Positions 4,391-19,510 of a stretch of DNA of 24,028 nt are shown here, in pieces. Where the stretch lies: IMG/VR virus record IMGVR_UViG_3300047476_001406, positions 1 through 24,028 of that record, one strand, 5' to 3'. Position 1 is the stretch's first letter. Each line of letters starts with the position of its first letter. Both the position numbers and the translations under genes were made by a program. This stretch comes from a virus. The notes beneath the pieces are model-generated. The model did no database searches. It worked only from the letters and a program-made list of their open reading frames with translations, and was not told where the DNA came from.

Positions 4391-5272
4391 ATGACTCTCT
4401 CCCACTTCCTCGAAACCGTCTACGTTCCCCTCCGGCTCCGCGGCCGGTCCGAAAACTCCGTTCGGCTCTTGCGCCACGCCGTCCGGCAGTTTTCCCGATT
4501 CCTCCGCCGGGAAGCCATGCTCGCCGACCTCGACGACCTGGTCGTGAGCCAATATCTCGCCGCCCGGGGGCGCACGCTCTCGCCGTATTCGGTCGAGCGC
4601 GAACGCTGCGGCATCCTCGCGCTCTGGCGACTCGCGGCCGACCGCCGGCTCGTCGACGTCCGGCCATGCGTCCAGGCCGAGCTATTGCCCGAGCGAACGC
4701 CGCGAGCATTCACCGGGGCCGAACTCCGGAGCCTATTCCTCGCGGCAGGGGCCGAGCCCGGGTTCGTCGGTCCGGTTCCGGCGGGAACATTCTGGCTCGC
4801 CCTGGTCGCGGCGCTTTTCGAATCGGGCGAACGCGTGTCGGCCATGCTCGCCGCACCGAAAGCCGGATGGTCCGCCCCGTTCCTTCGGATCCCGGCCGCC
4901 ATCCGCAAGGGGCGGCGCCGCGAGCGCGTCTACGAACTCTCCGCCGATACCGCCGCCCTGGTCGACGCCGCCAGCCGGCACGACGCGCCTACGCTGTTTT
5001 TCTGGCCGCTCGACCGGGCGACCGTCTACAACCGCTTCGGACGAATCACCGAACGCGCCGGGCTAGGCCGGGGGCGCGACGTCAAGTTTCACGCCCTGCG
5101 GCGCTCGACCGCGTCCCACCTAGCCGCCTCCGGGCTAGGAATAGACGTCGCCGGCTACATGGGACACGGGTCCGATAGGGTCACTCGCCGCAGCTACCTC
5201 GACCCCAGAATCGTGCAAGCCGGCGGGCCGAAACCGCTCGACGCCCTCGCGCGAATCTTCCGGGCCGGCTAG
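4391..5272 (+). CDS. int: Tyrosine recombinase / phage integrase
   Basis: This 293-aa protein is the only plus-strand gene. Residues 1-95 form a SAM-like core-binding domain (SENSVRLLRHAVRQFSRFLRR, YSVERERCGILALWRLAADR). The catalytic domain contains the expected residues: R148 (ESGERVSAML), K173 (AIRKGRRRERV), H234 and R237 (FHALRRSTASHLA), H259 (GYMGHGS) and nucleophile Y269 (RSYLDP). It would cut and rejoin DNA through a 3'-phosphotyrosine link for site-specific integration, excision or dimer resolution. There is no large N-terminal arm-binding domain, so it is nearer the compact XerC/Cre-sized enzymes than lambda Int. Its TAG stop shares a CTAG palindrome with the stop of the convergent glycosyltransferase gene. 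Confidence 0.93.
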   Translation: MTLSHFLETVYVPLRLRGRSENSVRLLRHAVRQFSRFLRREAMLADLDDLVVSQYLAARGRTLSPYSVERERCGILALWRLAADRRLVDVRPCVQAELLPERTPRAFTGAELRSLFLAAGAEPGFVGPVPAGTFWLALVAALFESGERVSAMLAAPKAGWSAPFLRIPAAIRKGRRRERVYELSADTAALVDAASRHDAPTLFFWPLDRATVYNRFGRITERAGLGRGRDVKFHALRRSTASHLAASGLGIDVAGYMGHGSDRVTRRSYLDPRIVQAGGPKPLDALARIFRAG

Positions 5273-5952
5273 ACCCGCCACCGAACGCCGGCAATCCGTC
5301 GCGCCCGGCGCCGCTTGCCGATGAAATGCCACAGGTAATCGGACATGGGCGTGACGACCCGCCCCCGCTTGCAAATCGACGCCGGCCGAATCGCGTTCCA
5401 CGTTGGCGGGAGCCATTCGGCCGGGGCGGCGCCGGCCGCAAGTAGAACCGAAAGCGACGACTGATCGGCAACGCCCGTATGGTCCCAGCCGTGCGCCTCC
5501 CCGCAAGCCCGGGCGCGCGAGAATAGCCCCGCGTGGATTGCAGGCGAGTAGATGATGAAACCGGCATTCAAGAGCCGCGCCGGATCCTGGACCGGCGGGA
5601 GCCCGAGCCGCTCCGCCCAGAGCGCCGCCGCCTCCGCGCGGAACGGCCGCAACTTCTCGACGGTCGACTGATCCGCCGTGACGACGCCGACCGCGGGCTC
5701 CGGCACCAGGCCGAACGGATCCGGGGCATCCGACCGAATCAAAACGTCCGCGTCTAACTGCAAAACCCGCGCGTAGCGCTGGACTACCAGTGGCGCGAAT
5801 AGCTTCTGCCAGAAAATATGAACCGGGGCGACCCGCTGCCGGATCTCCACCAGGTCGCATTTCCAACGCTGCGCCGCGTGTTCGAACGACCGTCGCGACG
5901 GCGGATAGAGCGACCGGCCGCCGACGTTCAGGACTAGCAAGCAACGGCGCAC
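5269..5952 (-). CDS. GT8-like glycosyltransferase
   Basis: I start this 227-aa protein at GTG 5952 (VRRCLLVLNVGGRSLY), just inside the end of the preceding gene and with GGGGA close upstream; longer versions run back through another coding frame. The motifs follow the GT8 (GT-A) plan: LQLDADVLI (residues 64-72) holds the DxD that binds a divalent metal and the sugar nucleotide, LLNAGFIIYS (127-136), ADQSSL (162-167), and a late HFIGKRR (209-215) like the family's HxxGxxK. No signal peptide or membrane segment is seen, so it acts in the cytoplasm. It overlaps the GT25/sulfotransferase fusion by 19 bases and follows two Ser- and Cys-rich tail genes. The acceptor is unknown; a virion protein is the likeliest by context. 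Confidence 0.8.
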   Translation of the reverse strand: MRRCLLVLNVGGRSLYPPSRRSFEHAAQRWKCDLVEIRQRVAPVHIFWQKLFAPLVVQRYARVLQLDADVLIRSDAPDPFGLVPEPAVGVVTADQSTVEKLRPFRAEAAALWAERLGLPPVQDPARLLNAGFIIYSPAIHAGLFSRARACGEAHGWDHTGVADQSSLSVLLAAGAAPAEWLPPTWNAIRPASICKRGRVVTPMSDYLWHFIGKRRRARRIAGVRWRV

Positions 5953-7268
5953 GCGTCCCCCTTTTTGATATGAGCCACAGCCGCCGACAGCTGCGCGGCC
6001 GTCGGCTCGACCCCGAGGAACTCGACCAGGTCGCCGACGACCGCCGCCGGGTCGTCCCGCATAGCCCGCCAATCGACCCGGTAGACCAGGTCCGCGGGGA
6101 ACGTCGACAGGAACGAATCCCGTTCCTGCCATAGCCAACGCTGTACCGCCTCCGCCTCCGCGTCCGTAATCGCCAGCCAGCCTTTGGCGTCCCTGGACCG
6201 CCGCCGCAGGCTTTCGATGGACTCTTCCAGGGGCCGATCGCAGACGACGACCCGCAACGCGTCGCCGGCCGCCTCGACCAACTCCGGACCCATTGCGCAG
6301 AGGTGCGGATACTTGCCGCCGGCTATCGTCCGGCCCGCGAACCTCCGCCGGACCCAGCCGGACAACTGCCGCGCCAACTCCAGGCGGTCCATTGTGAGCA
6401 TCGGCGACGGGAACCGGGCGGCCCGCTCGCAAATCGCCGCCAGGCCGCGAGCCTCCCCGCCGCCGCCGTTCCGGTTCTCAAACCCGCCGAGCTTGTCGCC
6501 CATGCTCACGCCGAGCTTGTGCAGCACCATCGCGCAGGCCGACGAACCGGAACGATGAAGCCCCATGACCGCGACGAACTTCCGTTCGGCCGCAGGCGCC
6601 GCGATGCCCGCAGCCGGCTCCGGCGGCGCCGAGCGACCCCGCCACCAACGTTCCGCGGTTAGCTTGCCCGATATGTTCGACTGCCCCGCCGCCTGCCCGC
6701 AGAGCCATTCCGCCGGAGCGTAGAACCCGCTCCGCTGTTCCTTGTGCATCCGCCCGTAATGATGGTCGATATGGAATCCGTTCTTCCACTGGTCCGACGC
6801 GTGGAGCCAACGGTATAGGCGGAGCATCCCGACGCGCCCGCGGATAGCGTAGGCATGGGTCCGGTTCACGTTCGACGCCCGGACGACCAGGCGGTTTCCG
6901 GGGACCGCCAGCGGGGGCCGCAAGTGTTGCCCGCCGAAATACGCCTGGACCCAATCAGACGGAAGCGCCGCCAGATACTCGCGAGCCCGAGCCGCGAACC
7001 CCGGGCAAAACGTCGCGTCGTCCTCGAATATAAGAACGCTTTCCTGCCCCGCGTTAATCGCGTCTTCGATGATTCGAACGTGCGAACGGTAGCAACCCCA
7101 GGCGCCGCCGCCCTGCCGCCACCATGACGGATGCCGGCACCGCGACCCGTCGACAGCCCGGACAACTTCGACTTTGCCGAACGGGAAATCCGCCGGCAGA
7201 CCGGCGAAGAACGACGCCAGCCGGTCCGGCCGGCGATCCAGCGACACCACACACACACGGTCAAACAT
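5934..7268 (-). CDS. Glycosyltransferase family 25 / sulfotransferase-like fusion
   Basis: The product is 444 aa from ATG 7268 (MFDRVCVVSLDRRPDRL), with GAGGG 9 bases upstream; ATG 7286 is an alternative adding six residues. Residues 1-205 match GT25 enzymes: the VVSLDRRPDRL opening, GAWGCYRSHVRIIEDA, the acidic LIFEDDATF (79-87), and a late HIDHHYGR. An Ala/Pro linker (about 210-228) leads to a second domain with P-loop AVMGLHRSGSSACAMVLHKLG (233-253), the 5'-PSB-like loop that binds PAPS in sulfotransferases, then VVVCDRPLEESIESLRRR (340-357), which fits the 3'-phosphate-binding region. One chain may therefore attach and sulfate a sugar. A kinase-like use of the P-loop cannot be excluded. 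It overlaps both neighbours. Confidence 0.82.
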   Translation of the reverse strand: MFDRVCVVSLDRRPDRLASFFAGLPADFPFGKVEVVRAVDGSRCRHPSWWRQGGGAWGCYRSHVRIIEDAINAGQESVLIFEDDATFCPGFAARAREYLAALPSDWVQAYFGGQHLRPPLAVPGNRLVVRASNVNRTHAYAIRGRVGMLRLYRWLHASDQWKNGFHIDHHYGRMHKEQRSGFYAPAEWLCGQAAGQSNISGKLTAERWWRGRSAPPEPAAGIAAPAAERKFVAVMGLHRSGSSACAMVLHKLGVSMGDKLGGFENRNGGGGEARGLAAICERAARFPSPMLTMDRLELARQLSGWVRRRFAGRTIAGGKYPHLCAMGPELVEAAGDALRVVVCDRPLEESIESLRRRSRDAKGWLAITDAEAEAVQRWLWQERDSFLSTFPADLVYRVDWRAMRDDPAAVVGDLVEFLGVEPTAAQLSAAVAHIKKGDACAVAC

Positions 7269-8358
7269 AGCCCGCAGCCCTCGCATTTTTGATAGCCCTA
7301 CGAATCAACGCCCGACCTACCGCCGGGACGAACGGCAAGCGCCGCCGCCGGCTTTCCTCCCGTAGCCACTCCAGGACCGTCGCCTGGTTCGCCTCGACCC
7401 ACGCGACGCCCCGGTTGTCCATTTCCCGCGCGCGAGCGTTGCACCGGCACGACGGCGAACTCCGGATCCCCAGCTTGCCGAGAAGTTTTTTCAACTCCGT
7501 CCCCGCGCCGCCCTTCGGGGCCGGGGGCTTGCTCGACGGGGCCGGGAAAGGAGCGCTGCGCTCGCGGCTAGTGGCCCTCGACTCCTCGCACGGCCCGGGA
7601 TAGTTGTCCCGATACCATTGCTCGCACGCCTGTTTGCTAAACGCGTCATACGGGAATGCCGCCGCCACGCCCTGCGCTTCCTCTAGCGTGTCCCAAACGC
7701 CCGTAGGACAGCATTCGCCCGGCCCGCAGTCGGGATGGATGAACGTGCAGTATTTATCCGGCGGGCAGGAAGGTGGAGTGCAGGACGTTGCCGGAGGCGG
7801 TTCGGGGCAAGGCCCATCGGGTGGGGCGACAGCCGCGCCGCCAGCCGCCGCACATTGGCGGGCAGCTTCGGCTATTTCCTCTTCGGAGCAATCCGTCGGA
7901 AAATATTTCTGGCATAGCCCGTCGACGCCGTTCGGGAAGAAAAACCCATCCGGGCATTGCTCCGGCGGCGGGCCGGGAATCTCGCAGACTAGGCAGCAAC
8001 CGGGCTCCGGGCAGGGGCGCCCCATCGGCCCGCCGCCGTGCATGGATTCCGTACAATCCCGCTCCGCCTCCAAATGATCCGGCAGCGGGCCGCCGTCCGG
8101 CTCCGAGCCGCATTCAATCGGCGTGTATTTCGCGCACCAAACATGCGTGTCCCTGTCCTCGCAAACGTAGCCCTCCGGGCATTCGTCGCACCGTTCCGGA
8201 TAGACAGCATCCGGGAAATCGAAAGAGCATTCGTAACAACAATCCTTGACGGCATCGCTCGAGGGCGACCCGCTCGACGACGACGACGACGAACCCGACG
8301 ACGAGGAACCGCCGCAACATTCGCAGACGCCGAGATTATGCCGCGTCGTTCGCGCCAT
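7261..8358 (-). CDS. Cysteine-rich tail-tip protein with Ser linker and C-terminal basic domain
   Basis: The gene starts at ATG 8358 (MARTTRHNLGVCECC), overlapping the upstream stop by one base (TAATG), and encodes 365 aa. It opens with CECC followed by a Ser/Gly linker (GGSSSSGSSSSSSSG), a shorter form of the CECG-polyserine in the preceding protein. Residues 40-270 hold about 26 of the protein's roughly 31 cysteines in spaced pairs (DCCYEC, RCDEC, PGCCLVC, PDCGPGECC), as in disulfide-knotted extracellular proteins. After a Pro/Lys linker, the last 80 residues form a separate helical domain (ELKKLLGKLGI, SCRCNARAREMD, VLEWLREESRRRRLPF). The position after the tail genes suggests a virion tip or appendage. 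No known receptor-binding fold is recognised. Confidence 0.75.
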   Translation of the reverse strand: MARTTRHNLGVCECCGGSSSSGSSSSSSSGSPSSDAVKDCCYECSFDFPDAVYPERCDECPEGYVCEDRDTHVWCAKYTPIECGSEPDGGPLPDHLEAERDCTESMHGGGPMGRPCPEPGCCLVCEIPGPPPEQCPDGFFFPNGVDGLCQKYFPTDCSEEEIAEAARQCAAAGGAAVAPPDGPCPEPPPATSCTPPSCPPDKYCTFIHPDCGPGECCPTGVWDTLEEAQGVAAAFPYDAFSKQACEQWYRDNYPGPCEESRATSRERSAPFPAPSSKPPAPKGGAGTELKKLLGKLGIRSSPSCRCNARAREMDNRGVAWVEANQATVLEWLREESRRRRLPFVPAVGRALIRRAIKNARAAGYV

Positions 8359-9911
8359 TACTCCTCCCAGACCCGCGCCCATATTTTCGTCTTCTCGACG
8401 ATTAGCTCGCCGTCGACGCAACTAACATTCGTGACCACCTCAAGCCACTCCCCCGGGCCGCAGCTTCCGCCGCCGCCACCGGAGCCGGAGCCGGAGCCCG
8501 AGCCGCCGCCACCACCGGAGCCGGATCCCGAGCCGCTGCCGGGTCCGCCGCCACTCCCGCTACCGCTTCCGCCACTTCCACCGGACGACGCGCAAGAGCA
8601 CCGCTCGCAACACTCCTCGTAGGATTCGTGCGGGTCGCCCTGCGGCGGTAAACCATTCCAGTAGTTCCCCGGCTCGTTCGGTTGGCGACAAACGGCTTTT
8701 GTCTCGTCGTCGTCCGGCCAATAGCAAAACCAAGGGGGCGGCGGGTTGCATTCCGCGTCGCAGTCTTCGAGCGTGTCGTGATGGCCGGAGATCGGCGCCA
8801 GCGGCTCCGCGCCCGGTTCCGGGGTCCATAGCCCCGCGTCGTCGTTCGGGTCGTCCGAAACGTGGCATTCCTTGATAGGATCGCCGTTGTCGTCCGTTCC
8901 GACCTGGTAGCAATACCAGCGACCCCAGTAGCTCGAAGCCTCTTCCGACGAAGACGACCCCGGCAAGCCGCAGGCTTCCGCGCATTCCTCATATGTCGAA
9001 TGCGGCCCCGACTCCGGGTATAGCGGCTCCTGATCGGATCCCGGCGGGGTCCAGGCCGCGTATTCGTCGTCCGGGTCGTCCGGCGTATGGCATTCCTTGA
9101 TAGGATCGCCGTGCGAATCCGTCCCGACGACGTAGCAATACCAGCGCCCCGCGGAATCGCCGCTACCCGAACCGCCCGAGCCTCCGCCGCCGCCGTCGCC
9201 CGAGCCGTCCGAATCCCCGGAGCCGTCCCCGGACCCGTCGCCCGAGCCCCCGGACCCGTCGCCGGAACCGCCCGAACCGCCGGAGCCCCCGGAGCCGCCC
9301 GAGCCGCCGTCGCCCGAGCCGCCGGAGCCCGACGAACTCGACGACGACGACGACGAGGAAGTCGACGACGAAGACGAACTCGACGACGAGGAACTCGACG
9401 ACGAGGAACTCGACGACGAGGAACTCGACGACGAGGAACTCGACGACGAGGAACCGCATTCGCATTCGACGACTCGCAGGATCCGCCAGAACGGCTTTTC
9501 GCCGTTGTCCCGCGGGTATTCGTAGCGAGCCTCGACGACCGTTCCCGTGGGCAGCTTCTCGCCCGACGGATTCCCCTGCGCCGCATTGAACAACGCGACG
9601 ACCGACGAGACGTCGCGGACCTCGACCGGATCCTCGCGGGGCGTGACCAGCTTGAACGACGCGCCGCAGCCCGATTCCGACTCCGCCGCCGCCAAGTAGA
9701 CCTCTTGCGCCTCGACCGTGCCGCAGCTTTCGAGCTTTAGTAGCGTCCGAAAGAACGCGTCGCGGGGCGGCTCGTCCGGACGGTAGGGCCAATGGCCGGC
9801 GCCGACAGTGCCGCCGCCGCGCTCCACTGTCTCGACCGCCCGCGCAATGCGGTCCGCCGCCGACTTCGAAAAGACGACGACCGGGTTTCGGTTTGTCGCC
9901 TTCCGGGCCAC
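8358..9911 (-). CDS. Large Ser/Gly-rich tail-tip or fibre protein with three cysteine modules
   Basis: This 517-aa protein starts at GTG 9911, overlapping the preceding TAG by one base. Residues 1-150 form an ordered N-terminal domain (FFRTLLKLESCGTVEAQEVYLAA, GTVVEARYEYPRDNGEKPFWRILRVVECECG). A polyserine tract of over 40 residues follows, then a Gly/Ser/Asp linker to about residue 250. Three related modules come next (about 252-313, 328-391, 392-442), each with W(Y/F)CY, a second Cys, and a closing C..(A/E)C or CC..C. A second Gly/Ser/Pro linker and a short C-terminal domain (GEWLEVVTNVSCVDGELIVEKTKIWARVWEE) end the chain. The position after tape measure and tail genes points to a surface fibre or tip. 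The serines are candidate glycosylation sites for the enzymes encoded next. Confidence 0.75.
   Translation of the reverse strand: MARKATNRNPVVVFSKSAADRIARAVETVERGGGTVGAGHWPYRPDEPPRDAFFRTLLKLESCGTVEAQEVYLAAAESESGCGASFKLVTPREDPVEVRDVSSVVALFNAAQGNPSGEKLPTGTVVEARYEYPRDNGEKPFWRILRVVECECGSSSSSSSSSSSSSSSSSSSSSSSSSSSSSSTSSSSSSSSSSGSGGSGDGGSGGSGGSGGSGGSGDGSGGSGDGSGDGSGDSDGSGDGGGGGSGGSGSGDSAGRWYCYVVGTDSHGDPIKECHTPDDPDDEYAAWTPPGSDQEPLYPESGPHSTYEECAEACGLPGSSSSEEASSYWGRWYCYQVGTDDNGDPIKECHVSDDPNDDAGLWTPEPGAEPLAPISGHHDTLEDCDAECNPPPPWFCYWPDDDETKAVCRQPNEPGNYWNGLPPQGDPHESYEECCERCSCASSGGSGGSGSGSGGGPGSGSGSGSGGGGGSGSGSGSGGGGGSCGPGEWLEVVTNVSCVDGELIVEKTKIWARVWEE
8470..8590. repeat. Low-complexity Gly/Ser-coding region (C-terminal linker)
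   Basis: GC-rich degenerate hexamer-like repeats encode about 40 residues of GSGSG/GGGGS. It separates the third cysteine module from the C-terminal domain. Such tracts are flexible spacers and tend to vary in length between related phages. Confidence 0.7.
9165..9335. repeat. Low-complexity Gly/Ser/Asp-coding linker
   Basis: Irregular repeats around the hexamer GAGCCG/CCGGAG encode a GSGGSGDG linker between the polyserine tract and the first cysteine module of the 517-aa protein. Confidence 0.7.
9376..9450. repeat. Five perfect tandem copies of a 15-base polyserine-coding unit
   Basis: The unit GAACTCGACGACGAG is repeated five times without change (9376-9390, 9391-9405, 9406-9420, 9421-9435, 9436-9450), with degenerate copies to the left back to about 9341. 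On the minus strand each unit encodes five serines with mixed Ser codons (TCG, AGT, TCC). Exact repetition points to recent expansion by slippage or unequal recombination. Confidence 0.9.
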
Positions 9912-10795
9912 TAGGAAATGCCCCCGAACCAGGAGAACGACGCTTCCGCGTAAGGATTCGCGCCCTGCCCGCCGTTAATCACTTGCGGGTAGCCCGGAGC
10001 CGGCCCGAGAACGCCGACGCCCTGCGCGAGCGCGACCGGCTCTTTTATTGGCCTTTTATCCTGCCCGAGGATTGCCGCCAGGTAATCGCCCGACGCCGTC
10101 GGCATCCCCTCGACGTCGACCTTTTGCGAGTAGCCGATGTCCAGCGGTTTCAAAACCCAGGTATCTTCCCGGTAGGCGAAATCGAACGTGACCTCCCAAT
10201 AGGAAAACTGTTGCCCGGGAGCGCCTTCCGTTTTCTTTGCGAACCGGCCGCCCTGGCACTTCCAGGTTTTCGGGGGACAGCCGAGAAAAGAATCCGAGTT
10301 GATTTTGTTTGTGTAGTTCCGCAGCGCAGAGATTCCGGAGAAATCCGCGAAACAGCGCGTCAGCGAACAGGAAAACTCCGCTATCTCCATTGTCAGATCG
10401 GGCAGCGCGACGCCGGCCGAGTTTGTAATCGGCTCCCCGGTTATGTCCTTCCAGCACGGCCCCGACGACACCGAACTTCCGCCGGTCCAGACGTCCGGGG
10501 GAAGCGCCGTAGGGTCCGTGTCGCCGTCGCGCTTGGGCGTGTAGTAGCGGACCGTGAGCCCGTACAGAAGCAACGAATCGCCGCGCGGCTTGACGTCAAA
10601 CTCCATCGCGAAAACGCTAGAGTCGTCCGGATGCGGCGACCCGAACGACACGCCCGCCGCCTGCGCAATCGCCGCTACGGACGTTCCCGGGCTATCGACC
10701 TTGATAGTCCAGCTGCGCGTATAGGTAACCGCCTCCCGGAACTTTCCGGATGCGCCGCGCTCGTCCGCGTTTTCCCGGACCGCAAGGATTCCCAT
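9911..10795 (-). CDS. Tail protein downstream of tape measure (distal-tail/tip candidate)
   Basis: The protein has 294 aa from ATG 10795, one base from the tape measure stop. It is largely strand (YTRSWTIKVDSP, VFAMEFDVKPRGDSLLLYGLTVRYYTP, SYWEVTFDFAYREDTWVLKPLDIGYSQKV), with scattered Cys residues (CWKD, SCSLTRC, GCPPKTWKCQ). I do not recognise a named family. By synteny the first gene after the tape measure in siphoviruses encodes the distal tail or tip hub protein, and the beta-rich content agrees. It is followed by the Ser-rich tip protein with a one-base overlap, so the three genes are probably translated together. Confidence 0.65.
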   Translation of the reverse strand: MGILAVRENADERGASGKFREAVTYTRSWTIKVDSPGTSVAAIAQAAGVSFGSPHPDDSSVFAMEFDVKPRGDSLLLYGLTVRYYTPKRDGDTDPTALPPDVWTGGSSVSSGPCWKDITGEPITNSAGVALPDLTMEIAEFSCSLTRCFADFSGISALRNYTNKINSDSFLGCPPKTWKCQGGRFAKKTEGAPGQQFSYWEVTFDFAYREDTWVLKPLDIGYSQKVDVEGMPTASGDYLAAILGQDKRPIKEPVALAQGVGVLGPAPGYPQVINGGQGANPYAEASFSWFGGIS

Positions 10796-12340
10796 TCACC
10801 ACCCGTACTCAGTGACGTCTAGCCCAATGTTCGCCGTGTTGTAGGCAATCTCGCGGAGATGCTCGTTAGCCTCTTCCGCCGCATCCTCGCGGCGCGTCTG
10901 CGGCGCCATAAGACGGAGCATTTCGTTAACGCCCGCGCTCGAACGAATGTCGAGCCCCTTCGCGAGCTTCGCTTCGTCGATCGCGACTTTCGCCTCGACC
11001 TTCGGCTCGACGGTTTGTTTCGTCGCCTCGTCCGCCGACGTCCGCGCCCGCTCGACGCTCTCCCGGATCCCGCGGAATGCCGTCGTGACCGGCCCCGCGA
11101 TCCGGTCGCCCGACGCCTCCGCACGCTCGCCGAACGCGTCCGCGAACAGCCGGCCGGCTTCCGCCGTGTTCGCCGTCATTGCGTCCGCGTAGGCCGTCGC
11201 GGTCGCGTCCATCGTGTCCGACCAGGCCCGAGCCCCTTCGGCCAGGTCGCCGGCGCCGGGAATGTAGTCCGCGACGTTCGCGATAACGTCCAGCAAACCG
11301 GATAACACGTTCGCGATGACCCGCCCGAACGCGTTGCCGACGACCTCGAACAGGGTAAAAACGCCCTGCGCCGCCGCGACGGCCCGGGAGAAAATGTCGA
11401 CGACCGATGACCAATAGGCCGCGACGTTCTCCGCGTACTTCCAGACCTCCGGCATATTCTGGAGGAACCAATCCGCGACGCCGGCCAGGTAGTCCGCCCC
11501 GTCTAGAAGCGCGTCCGCGATTGCCTCCCCGATCGACTTCCCGCCGAAACCCGCGACGAAATCGACGAACGCTTCATTCAGCGCCGTAACCGCCGGAGCC
11601 AGGTTGGCGACGATTTGGGTAACGACCCCTTCGATAGCCTTGCCGACCATCGTAAAGGAATCATTCATTGCCTCGACGTTTTGACCCTGGACGTTCGTAA
11701 GCGCGAGCCCGAGCCGATCCGCCATTTCCATAGCTTCCCGGATCCCGTCGGCGCCGCCGGCGAAGAGGGGCAACAGGTCCGCCCCCGCCTTCCCGAAAAT
11801 CGCGATCGACGCCGCGGCCCGCTCCGCCTCCGTCGGCAACTCCGCAATCGCCGCCGCGATCAGTTGGAACCGCTCCGCCCCGGTCGTTCCTTGCAGTTCG
11901 TCGACCGACAGGCCGATCCGGGCGAACGCCGCTTGCGCCGTCTTCGATCCTTCCGCCGCCATGACGAACGCCCGATCCGCTTTCGTCATCGCGCCCGCGA
12001 TTTTGTCGACGCCGACGCCAGCCAGGTCGCCGGCCAGCGCGAGCCCGGACATTTCCGCGTAGGTCGTCCCCGTCCGGGCCGCGAGTTTCGACATAACGTC
12101 GACACTCTCCGCCGCCGCTTGCGTCATGCCGACCAGCGACTGCGTCGCGTTGGCGACCCCGGCCGCGATCGACCCGAACAGCTGCGCCCCGGAAATCGCC
12201 GTCAACGTCGACAGCCCGCCCCGGAGCCCGCGGACGTCCGCCGCCAGGCGGTCGAGAGCCGCTGACGCCTGCCGGGTTCCCGAGAGCAACGACGACGTAT
12301 TCGCCGTGAAGACTGCCGCAATGCGACTTGTCGCGGTCAT
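10796..12340 (-). CDS. Tail tape measure protein
   Basis: This is a 514-aa protein from ATG 12340, overlapping the chaperone stop as ATGA. The N-terminus (TSRIAAVFTANTSSLLSGTRQASAALDRLAADVRGL) and the following phage-tail tape measure region (SKLAARTGTTYAEMSGLALAGDLAGVGVDKIAGAMTKADRAF, AIFGKAGADLLPLFAGGADG) are typical of the family. Hydrophobic segments occur around residues 225-255 and 330-370, and an Ala-rich coiled coil lies near the end. The protein sets tail length and leaves the tail during DNA injection. At about 0.15 nm per residue, 514 residues predict a tail near 75-80 nm, short for a siphovirus. No peptidase domain is visible. Confidence 0.88.
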   Translation of the reverse strand: MTATSRIAAVFTANTSSLLSGTRQASAALDRLAADVRGLRGGLSTLTAISGAQLFGSIAAGVANATQSLVGMTQAAAESVDVMSKLAARTGTTYAEMSGLALAGDLAGVGVDKIAGAMTKADRAFVMAAEGSKTAQAAFARIGLSVDELQGTTGAERFQLIAAAIAELPTEAERAAASIAIFGKAGADLLPLFAGGADGIREAMEMADRLGLALTNVQGQNVEAMNDSFTMVGKAIEGVVTQIVANLAPAVTALNEAFVDFVAGFGGKSIGEAIADALLDGADYLAGVADWFLQNMPEVWKYAENVAAYWSSVVDIFSRAVAAAQGVFTLFEVVGNAFGRVIANVLSGLLDVIANVADYIPGAGDLAEGARAWSDTMDATATAYADAMTANTAEAGRLFADAFGERAEASGDRIAGPVTTAFRGIRESVERARTSADEATKQTVEPKVEAKVAIDEAKLAKGLDIRSSAGVNEMLRLMAPQTRREDAAEEANEHLREIAYNTANIGLDVTEYGW

Positions 12341-17493: not shown

Positions 17494-18255
17494 CTATTCC
17501 ACCGCGGCCCGGAACCGCGCCGCATTCCATTCGATGAACGCCGCCAGCTTGTCCCGGTCCGGGTAGTCAGGGTCAACACGGTCCGCGAGCGCGAGCATGG
17601 CCCGACAGTAGCCCTCCAACTCCCGCGCGTGACTCTCCGTTTCCTCGCGGCGCGTGAGCCCGAGTTGTCGACGGGCGAAGGTGCCGTGGACGTAGGCAAC
17701 CCATTCCTCGACGAGGTAGATCGGCTCCCGGTCCCAATCGCGCCGTTGCTCGACGAGGTACAGGTCGAAAATCCGCCCGCGCTTGTCCGCCGGGATCGAC
17801 CGGGCAACGTCGCCAATCGTCAGCCGCGGATGCCGGAGCGACACGCCGCGACCGTCCAACAGGTAGATAGCGTGCGCGCCGGGAACCTTCGGAAGACGAA
17901 CGCACGCCCCATGCGTCCCTTCATGCGTCCAGGTCACCAGGTCGCCGGGGTCCGTCTGGTCCCGCCAGTATTCCGGATCCGGGAGCCGCGCGAGAACGTC
18001 CGCCAGGACCGGCGGATCCGACCGCATCGGCCGGCCGACGACCGGCGGGCCGGGCGTGAACTCGAACCCCGGGGCCGCGGGAGCCGGCGGAGCCGGGGGC
18101 GGCGGCGCCGGCTCGACCAAGAGGGCCGGCCGAGGGGCTGCGCGAGCCGGGAGGGGCTGCGATGGTGGGACCACCCCCGCGCCCGCCGCCAGCCACCCCG
18201 GCCGACTTTCCGAGAGAAACGCCGACAGTATCAGCGCGAGAGCCAGACGACGCAC
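17494..18255 (-). CDS. Exported putative zinc metallopeptidase (HExxH)
   Basis: The gene starts at GTG 18255 with GGAGG 7 bases upstream and encodes 253 aa. A signal-like N-terminus (MRRLALALILSAFLS) is followed by a Pro/Ala-rich stretch to about residue 70. The domain contains LVTWTHEGTHGACVRL, where HEGTH (111-115) fits the HExxH zinc motif, and LVEEWVAYVHGTF (181-193), where Glu183 or Glu184 could be the third ligand as in gluzincins. DREPIY and helices LEGYCRAMLALADRV and LAAFIEWNAARF complete it. It would act outside the cytoplasm, possibly on cell envelope or surface protein. The exact peptidase family is unknown. The location, between protease and capsid genes, is unusual. Confidence 0.7.
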   Translation of the reverse strand: MRRLALALILSAFLSESRPGWLAAGAGVVPPSQPLPARAAPRPALLVEPAPPPPAPPAPAAPGFEFTPGPPVVGRPMRSDPPVLADVLARLPDPEYWRDQTDPGDLVTWTHEGTHGACVRLPKVPGAHAIYLLDGRGVSLRHPRLTIGDVARSIPADKRGRIFDLYLVEQRRDWDREPIYLVEEWVAYVHGTFARRQLGLTRREETESHARELEGYCRAMLALADRVDPDYPDRDKLAAFIEWNAARFRAAVE

Positions 18256-18282: not shown

Positions 18283-18963
18283 CTATTCCTTCGCCGCCCG
18301 GTACGCGTCGCGGGCCGCCTGGACCGCGTTCCGCTGCGTGGCTTCCGCATTCGCCCGGCGACCATGCCGGTAGCTCTGGTGTTCGAGCCGCGCGGCCTTT
18401 TGCGTTTCGTGCATTTCCTTCCGCGCGTCCCGGTACTGGCGGATGAGCCGGTCCGGTTGCTCGCCCTGCCCGGGAGCCGTCACGCCGCACTGTCCCGACT
18501 CGCAAGCCGGAGCCGGGGGCGGCGCGTCGACCTCGACGAACTCGCGAACCAGGTAGCGGACGACCGGGGACGACTGCCCGCCGTCGGCAAACCCGCGAGC
18601 CTCCGCCGGATCCGGGGGCGCCGCCACAGGGGCCGGAGCCGAAACCGGGGCAGGGGCCGCGCCCGGGGCCGGAGCCTGGACGACCGACCGCGACGCCGCC
18701 GGGGCCGGAACCTCGACGACCTCCGGAACGATTTCGACGACCTCCCGCCGCGCGACCGAGCCACCCGCCGAGCCGTAGCCCGCCGGGGGCGCCGAACGGG
18801 TCGAGCCGCCACCCGCCGAGCCGTAGCCCGCGGCCGGGGCCGAGCGCGTCGAGCCGCCATGCGAACTCCCGCCGCTCGAACCGTAGCCGCCGGCACTCGC
18901 GATACCCGCGAGGATGACGACGAGAACGACGCACGAACCGCAAAGGCTAAAGGCAGACCGCAT
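18283..18963 (-). CDS. Exported GYGSAGG-repeat protein with basic helical C-terminus
   Basis: I start at ATG 18963 (MRSAFSLCGSCVVLVVILAGIASA), with GGGAGAG 8 bases upstream; the earlier in-frame ATG adds 18 residues ahead of the signal peptide. The signal peptide is followed by repeats GGYGSSGGSSHGGSTRSAPAA, GYGSAGGGSTRSAPPA and GYGSAGGSV (residues 25-70), then a valine/proline-rich stretch and the CESGQCG pair (154-159). The last 60 residues are a charged helix (LIRQYRDARKEMHETQKAARLEHQSYRHGRR...). Similar repeat-bearing secreted proteins are common in planctomycetes. No enzyme motif is seen and the function is unknown. A host-derived cargo gene is likely. Confidence 0.7.
   Translation of the reverse strand: MRSAFSLCGSCVVLVVILAGIASAGGYGSSGGSSHGGSTRSAPAAGYGSAGGGSTRSAPPAGYGSAGGSVARREVVEIVPEVVEVPAPAASRSVVQAPAPGAAPAPVSAPAPVAAPPDPAEARGFADGGQSSPVVRYLVREFVEVDAPPPAPACESGQCGVTAPGQGEQPDRLIRQYRDARKEMHETQKAARLEHQSYRHGRRANAEATQRNAVQAARDAYRAAKE
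18760..18893. repeat. Tandem repeats coding GYGSAGGGSTRSAP
   Basis: Near-identical copies of an approximately 50-base unit built around GAGCCGTAGCC and GAGCCGCC encode the GYGSAGG/STRSAPP repeats of the exported protein. Copies differ by a few bases, so the array is older than the perfect 15-base array at 9376-9450. Confidence 0.7.
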
Positions 18964-18982
18964 AGGATGACTCTCCCGGGAA

Positions 18983-19510
18983 CTACTGAAACGATTGTGT
19001 CCAATAAAGGCGACCATCCGCAGCCCGGGCGCAACCTACACCGATCGACGTTGCCCGTGAACTCAAAATATTCGCCCGGTGTCCGCGGCTATTCATCCAG
19101 GAAGACATGACCGACTCCGGGGATTCCTGCCCGCAAGCGACGTTTTCCGCGTAGCCGTTTTTCGAGTGATACATACGCCGACGGTTCGCTTGCGTCTGAC
19201 TCCAGTTTCGCGAGACGTCCATAAGCATCGGCGACGCCGACAGCGGCGGGAGCCCGCGGCGCCCGCGCTCTTGGTTCACCAGGTCGACGACCCGCATTTC
19301 AGCCGACGACCCAACGGGCCGGGCGACGACCCGCGGCGGAGCCGGGGGCGCCTGCGCGACTGCCGGCGCGACAATGGACGCCGTCCGCACGGGCGGCGCC
19401 GCCGGGGCCGGGGGAACCGGCGCCACCGACTGCCCAAACAGAAGCGCCACCAAAAAACCAGCGCCGGCCGATCCGACGCAACTAGTGTTGATCCCGCGGT
19501 CCGTCGCCAT
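18983..19510 (-). CDS. CAP/SCP (PR-1-like) domain protein with N-terminal anchor
   Basis: The protein has 175 aa from ATG 19510, overlapping the TM-protein gene by 29 bases. The N-terminus has a hydrophobic segment (VGSAGAGFLVALLFGQSV, 12-29), then Ala/Pro linker, then a compact CAP domain: VVDLVNQERGRRGLPPLSASPMLMDVSRNWSQTQANRRRMYHSKNGYAENVACG, SVMSSWMNSRGHRANILS and IGVGCARAADGRLYWTQSF. H115, E122 and H144 fit the CAP cavity residues, with E81 a candidate for the fourth. Bacterial CAP proteins are secreted, and their role is poorly known. Here the domain probably lies outside the membrane. It is rare in a phage head operon. Confidence 0.85.
   Translation of the reverse strand: MATDRGINTSCVGSAGAGFLVALLFGQSVAPVPPAPAAPPVRTASIVAPAVAQAPPAPPRVVARPVGSSAEMRVVDLVNQERGRRGLPPLSASPMLMDVSRNWSQTQANRRRMYHSKNGYAENVACGQESPESVMSSWMNSRGHRANILSSRATSIGVGCARAADGRLYWTQSFQ

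Follow-up and report, generated by a model that had tools for sequence, protein, structure and literature searches.

The window analysed here is the whole of a 24,028-nucleotide (24 kb) viral contig, IMG/VR record IMGVR_UViG_3300047476_001406, from a temperate siphovirus-like phage encoding terminase, portal, S78 protease, capsid, tape measure, and integrase. Directly after its tail genes lie four overlapping minus-strand genes, which encode a polyserine protein, a Cys/Ser-rich protein, a fusion of a GT25 glycosyltransferase to a sulfotransferase, and a GT8-like transferase. We propose, at a probability of about two in three, that these genes form a dedicated cassette for the cytoplasmic O-glycosylation, and probably sulfation, of a Ser-rich virion protein in a temperate siphovirus whose host most likely belongs to Planctomycetota. 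Gene order on the minus strand runs from the tape measure through a distal-tail-like gene into the four-gene cassette, which ends the late operon. All four open frames described in an earlier note on this sequence are present after the tail genes, overlapping and on one strand; two starts had to be corrected, the Cys/Ser-rich protein most likely starting at ATG 8358, in a TAATG stop/start shared with the polyserine gene, and not at 8421, and the GT8-like gene starting at GTG 5952 and not at 6432. The features of the cassette are:

8358..9911, minus strand: polyserine tail protein, 517 amino acids, GTG start, 20 Cys (open frame)
9330..9452, minus strand: polyserine tract, the proposed acceptor, amino acids 154-183 (30 Ser) and 185-194 (10 Ser) (sequence)
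7261..8358, minus strand: Cys/Ser-rich protein (NLGVCECCGGSSSS...), 365 amino acids (open frame; TAATG overlaps the previous stop)
7264..7539, minus strand: conserved C-terminal domain of the Cys/Ser-rich protein (GTELKKLL...CRCNARAREMD...WLREES), about 90 amino acids (comparison with relatives)
5934..7286, minus strand: GT25-sulfotransferase fusion, 450 amino acids as listed (Pfam and fold); the start is probably ATG 7268, which overlaps the stop of the preceding Cys-rich gene
6642..7268, minus strand: GT25 half with invariant EDD (E88-D90) and NRTHA (alignment; Foldseek match to COLGALT1, 9evk, E 6e-12)
5961..6581, minus strand: predicted sulfotransferase half with GLHRSGSS and invariant R351 and S359 (alignment, fold, Pfam)
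5269..5952, minus strand: GT8-like glycosyltransferase, 227 amino acids, DAD motif; GTG start overlaps the fusion stop (hhalign bridge)

Ser tracts and enzymes in related phages

The interpretation draws on the distribution of Ser tracts among relatives. Loci were gathered through queries with the fusion, the tape measure, and the distal-tail protein, none of which selects on a Ser tract, and a protein was called Ser-rich when 15 or more residues in a stretch of 30 were Ser. The first sample took contigs that share the tail module of the window (module 1) and extend for 4 kb or more downstream. Of these 53, all 17 with the fusion and none of the 36 without it have a polyserine tail protein. 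A second sample comprised 55 contigs with a different distal-tail family, unrelated to the first (module 2). Here too the fusion contigs had a Ser-rich tail protein (20/20), and all 43 Ser-rich contigs adjoin a sugar-transferase candidate: the fusion in 20, an MptE/Maf-like gene (an assignment below the Pfam cut-off) in 21, a GT25 with GT8/GT32 in one, and GT4 plus GT2 in one; none of the 12 contigs without these enzyme classes has a Ser-rich tail protein. These counts strongly bear out the co-occurrence of enzymes and Ser-rich proteins that the earlier note had proposed to check. Two narrower rules were tried and set aside. Polyserine is not exclusive to the fusion, as 23 Ser-rich contigs of module 2 lack it, each lying beside another sugar-transferase candidate. 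GT25 alone as the driver is unsupported, since ten of the 36 fusion-free contigs of module 1 carry a GT25 without a sulfotransferase and none of them has polyserine; L233 of module 2, with a GT25 lacking a sulfotransferase and a Ser-rich tail protein, is an exception.

The polyserine protein is composed of an N-terminal domain, the polyserine tract, a Ser/Gly tract, and Cys-rich repeats. Its 30 Ser per 30 residues compare with never more than 16 in 2000 shuffles of its own composition, and with a maximum of 5-6 in the other structural genes of the window. The N-terminal domain aligns with Ser-free proteins of about 114-165 amino acids at the same position in L031, L037, and L059, and in the fusion-free phages of module 1 the same small tail protein stops before the Ser tract begins. 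Across the whole gene Ser is encoded by 80 TCN and 16 AGY codons. Because both codon classes are mixed in each of ten loci examined, from different lineages, the tract is kept at the protein level and not only as a DNA repeat; in the window it is partly a 15-bp tandem repeat.

Some Ser-rich tail proteins have Hint (hedgehog/intein-like) domains between their Ser tracts (L078 6485-8512, L080 7072-8418 and 8429-9322, L194 7740-8954; Pfam matches weak and below cut-off), which suggests self-processing. The MptE/Maf-like gene (PF01973, below cut-off) adjoins Ser-rich tail proteins of a PSSTETxS type (L194 6796-7779, L215 7743-8843, and 19 other module-2 contigs) and would constitute a separate enzyme-acceptor pairing. 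At L213 6187-9298 a tail protein with 28 Ser in 30 residues is followed by a GT4, a radical SAM protein with a glycosyltransferase-like N-terminus, and a GT2 gene.

The enzymes and the Cys/Ser-rich protein

The GT25/sulfotransferase fusion predicted from the sequence was confirmed at the family level, 11 of 11 members matching both GT25 (best 6.6e-12) and Sulfotransfer_3 (best 2.4e-9) in Pfam. In the window protein itself GT25 (PF01755) passes its cut-off (26.9 bits vs 24), and Sulfotransfer_3 gives E 3e-4, which is below the Pfam cut-off. Foldseek searches with an AlphaFold model (pLDDT 81) returned human COLGALT1 as the top match of the N-terminal half (9evk, E 6e-12), and Mycobacterium STF1 (2e-7), human TPST2 (1.5e-6), and other sulfotransferases for the C-terminal half. 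In an alignment of 11 members E88-D89-D90 is invariant, which we take to be an acidic metal/sugar-nucleotide motif; R245 of GLHRSGSS is nearly invariant, and R351 and S359, eight residues apart, are invariant. This last spacing is that of 3'-phosphate binding to 3'-phosphoadenosine 5'-phosphosulfate (PAPS) in cytosolic sulfotransferases, and we take GLHRSGSS to be of the 5' PAPS loop type. Sequence and model together support a COLGALT1-like GT25 joined to a predicted PAPS-sulfotransferase-like half. Matches to GT25 in cultured phage records reached only about 30% and lay in unannotated metagenomic huge phages.

The assignment of the last gene stood in a more guarded form. Its own match to the GT8 family (PF01501) is weak (E 0.37; best member 0.016; cut-off not reached), and the bridge is a protein of L233 with a clear GT8 Pfam match, whose C-terminal part is matched by the GT8-like profile (hhalign 99.4%, E 1e-21); we term the window enzyme GT8-like only. 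A sequence search of the PDB gave nothing useful for this protein, and no relatives were found among cultured phage records. A GT8 gene stands beside the fusion in the window, L003, L004, L006-L011, and L025; elsewhere the partner is a GT8 fused to a methyltransferase (L016), a GT2 (L012), a PLOD-type glycosyltransferase (L027), a GT32-like gene with a pyruvyltransferase (L062), or two GT32-like genes (L078). The fusion is thus the constant element and the second transferase is swappable, a pattern which fits a shared core linkage carrying phage-specific outer sugars. The four genes do not form a fixed unit: in many relatives another gene stands in for the GT8 or for the Cys-rich protein, or either of them is absent.

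The Cys/Ser-rich protein contains 31 Cys and is only moderately rich in Ser (15/30 residues). Its C-terminal GTELKKLL domain is found in many relatives as a stand-alone gene directly upstream of the fusion gene. In a wider set of 32 loci, 18 with the fusion and 14 without, divergent Cys/Ser-rich tail proteins end in the tetrapeptide NPLP (among them L003 6632-7501, L006 8230-8763, L013 2116-2871 and 2868-3956, and L020 12695-14506); the stop of these genes often overlaps the next ATG, an overlap which does not explain the Asn. A small protein with the motif RCxERGYTLxEVxACIVxxDGDxxTVD lies upstream of the enzymes in many phages, and also occurs where no enzyme is seen (examples are L003 7498-7908, L006 8652-9170, L016 9546-10013, L049 11652-12074, and L032 13621-13956). 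The C-terminus of this protein swaps between the GTELKKLL domain and a DUF6171-like Cys motif (CxxC...CGCP...CPVGKW).

Proposed function and alternatives

The cassette would be expressed late, with modification taking place in the cytoplasm before tail assembly. The GT25 half would glycosylate hydroxyl groups within the Ser-rich tract, or add a second sugar, on an acceptor made from the same overlapping mRNA; the GT8-like enzyme may prime or extend the glycan chain, and the fused sulfotransferase would move sulfate from PAPS onto the glycan, transfer directly onto Ser being less likely. The tail protein would thereby gain a rigid, negatively charged segment resembling a bottle brush, which may serve spacing, solubility, protease resistance, or surface contact. 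The broader proposition, that Planctomycetota phages build sulfated O-glycans on polyserine bottle-brush tail segments through a GT25-sulfotransferase co-inherited with its acceptor, as one case among Ser-rich tails each with its own sugar-transferase family, is in our judgement evenly balanced.

It is unlikely that the transferases instead modify a host surface polysaccharide such as lipopolysaccharide (LPS) or capsule, in seroconversion or superinfection exclusion, with the polyserine protein a mere neighbor. GT25 is classically a family of LPS biosynthesis and the phage is temperate, which would suit such a role; however, the genes overlap and are embedded at the end of a late tail operon, and a host-surface function leaves unexplained why, in two unrelated tail modules, the enzymes track Ser-rich tail proteins. 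We also consider it quite improbable that the tract simply serves as a flexible or low-complexity linker and stays unmodified, its association with the enzymes reflecting shared ancestry of a few phage lineages. The small number of independent transitions and the tandem repeat within the window tract point that way. Against this, the scaffold proteins that bear Ser tracts differ, the tracts mix TCN and AGY codons, they always lie near a sugar-transferase candidate in both samples, the same scaffold without enzymes has no tract, and the pairing with different enzyme families would go unexplained. A further alternative keeps the enzymes acting on the tail and moves the acceptor elsewhere, for example to the Cys-rich protein or its GTELKKLL domain, with the sulfotransferase acting on protein side chains and not on a glycan. 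In many module-1 phages, as well as in Pirellula-type loci, the domain does lie immediately upstream of the fusion, and the Foldseek matches include the protein tyrosine sulfotransferase TPST2. But no copy of the domain was found in L022-L024, L062, L063, and L078-L082, where the fusion is still accompanied by a Ser-rich protein, and we regard this alternative as very unlikely.

Several points weigh against glycosylation and sulfation of the polyserine protein. The support is computational: the place of the Ser-rich protein in the virion is a prediction, as is the use of PAPS, the similarity to sulfotransferases being remote by sequence. One of the 12 module-2 contigs counted as lacking the enzymes (L236) carries no Ser tract although a GT2-like gene was recognised in it by eye; the 21 MptE/Maf-like genes fall below the Pfam cut-off; and L070 is an orphan fusion copy without a Ser-rich neighbor. 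Presence and absence moreover follow lineages, with three independent transitions in module 1 and two to three in module 2. The two traits always change together in both modules, and the transition pairs on the module 1 tree are concordant (3/3, sign test p 0.25), but with about three transitions per tree a paired sign test cannot reach significance. The weight of the association comes from its repetition in unrelated scaffolds and from the mixed TCN/AGY codons, which a mere DNA repeat would not produce, and not from the sign tests. Enzymes kept without Ser-rich proteins, which the earlier note had named as an observation that would count against it, were seen only as the orphan L070 and the decayed fusion chimera L084, while L019 has a mucin-like Ser/Thr/Pro repeat protein in place of a Ser-rich one. 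The L084 chimera (9389-10639) joins a distal-tail gene in frame to the sulfotransferase half in a Planctomycetales chromosome, at the deletion junction of a decayed prophage.

Hosts and distribution

The fusion is almost confined to prophages of Planctomycetota. It was found at 26 loci in IMG/VR, and a scan of one genome per species returned about 20 near-full-length copies (39-47% identity), nearly all in Planctomycetota, with two in one metagenome-assembled genome labelled Nevskiales. Among 392 sampled genomes from the phylum of Planctomycetes bacterium K23_9, the fusion is full-length in two and split in a third, and is therefore a rare prophage trait. Its cultured carriers include Rhodopirellula rubra CECT 8075 and the Planctomycetes bacterium strains TBK1r, K23_9, and SV_7m_r. 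The host of the window phage is probably also a member of the Planctomycetota, since the distal-tail family of the window occurs in 9 of these 392 genomes vs 0 of 349 and 0 of 297 in the phyla of a Comamonas and an Actinocorallia genome. The apparent planctomycete hosts come mostly from soil and water, so that masking from an animal immune system, one of the benefits raised originally, is not the natural expectation.

Comparison with known systems

Few cultured phages are known to glycosylate their virion proteins. Mycobacteriophages Che8, Rita, and relatives are temperate siphoviruses whose own glycosyltransferases modify their virion proteins, the known target being the major capsid protein and the genes lying near the genome end (Freeman et al. 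2023, cited in PMC11256854). The window likewise has phage-encoded glycosyltransferases beside structural genes, as would be expected of a phage virion glycosylation system; PMC11256854 describes neither a polyserine acceptor gene overlapping the enzymes nor a sulfotransferase fusion. The serine-rich repeat proteins (SRRPs) of Gram-positive bacteria are also Ser-rich acceptors encoded beside 2-10 variable glycosyltransferases, in a SecA2/Y2 cluster, and are O-glycosylated stepwise before export, the glycosylated region being stiff and rod-like (PMC6973325). The Ser-rich acceptor with adjacent glycosyltransferases is shared, whereas SRRPs are cellular adhesins with dedicated export and GtfA/GtfB priming, unlike a phage tail protein with a GT25-type enzyme and a fused sulfotransferase. 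No GtfA/GtfB or SecA2/SecY2 was recognised in the frames or family matches of the window, in which no dedicated models were used and which is an incomplete contig. By analogy the cassette may work like SRRP glycosylation; in kind we would place it with phage virion glycosylation and not among the SRRPs. Stand-alone phage sulfotransferases of the same Sulfotransfer_3 type occur in OM43 and Synechococcus phages, and PMC10580990 describes their role as unclear; that of the window is joined to a GT25 and linked with a Ser-rich tail protein.

The fold of the N-terminal half and the PLOD-type glycosyltransferase of L027 recall COLGALT1 (GT25) and PLOD, which modify repetitive structural proteins; the acceptor there is hydroxylysine, whereas neither a hydroxylase nor a collagen repeat was observed in this case. 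Maf/MptE-like enzymes are flagellin glycosyltransferases. In 21 relatives the Ser-rich tail protein is paired with a gene that resembles MptE weakly, below the cut-off, and the window has no such gene. While phage virion glycosylation is known, the literature searched yielded no paper dealing with the sulfation of phage virions or the glycosylation of polyserine tails, nor any sulfotransferase fusion with an enzyme-matched polyserine acceptor. The linking of a sulfotransferase-glycosyltransferase fusion to a plausible acceptor, by gene overlap and co-occurrence, makes both virion glycosylation and the role of phage sulfotransferases directly testable. Should the proposal hold, glycosylated tails would recur in a large phage group that has been little studied; the enzymes would be interchangeable, and the logic would be comparable to that of Gram-positive Ser-rich adhesins.

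Genomic context

The neighboring features of the window are:

10796..12340, minus strand: tape measure protein (phrog_8462, E 1e-31)
9911..10795, minus strand: distal-tail-like structural protein, the anchor for the comparative test (family and structure searches)
4391..5272, plus strand: tyrosine integrase, convergent with the GT8-like gene (family matches)

The integrase is the reason for calling the phage temperate. The model of the distal-tail-like gene had no PDB match below E 0.08, its BFVD matches being uncharacterised phage proteins, and an exact identity as Dit was left unconfirmed for want of a convincing solved relative. The location of the Ser-rich proteins at a tail tip or fiber, as first suggested, is indicated by gene position only and was not upheld. 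Elsewhere in the window, a CAP/SCP-domain protein (PF00188, E 8e-18; 18983-19510, minus strand) and two further proteins without Pfam matches (18283-19017 and 17494-18255) separate the prohead protease from the major capsid protein. Homologues are present in the relatives L030, L109, L111, L116, and L138, and are mostly 45-80% identical.

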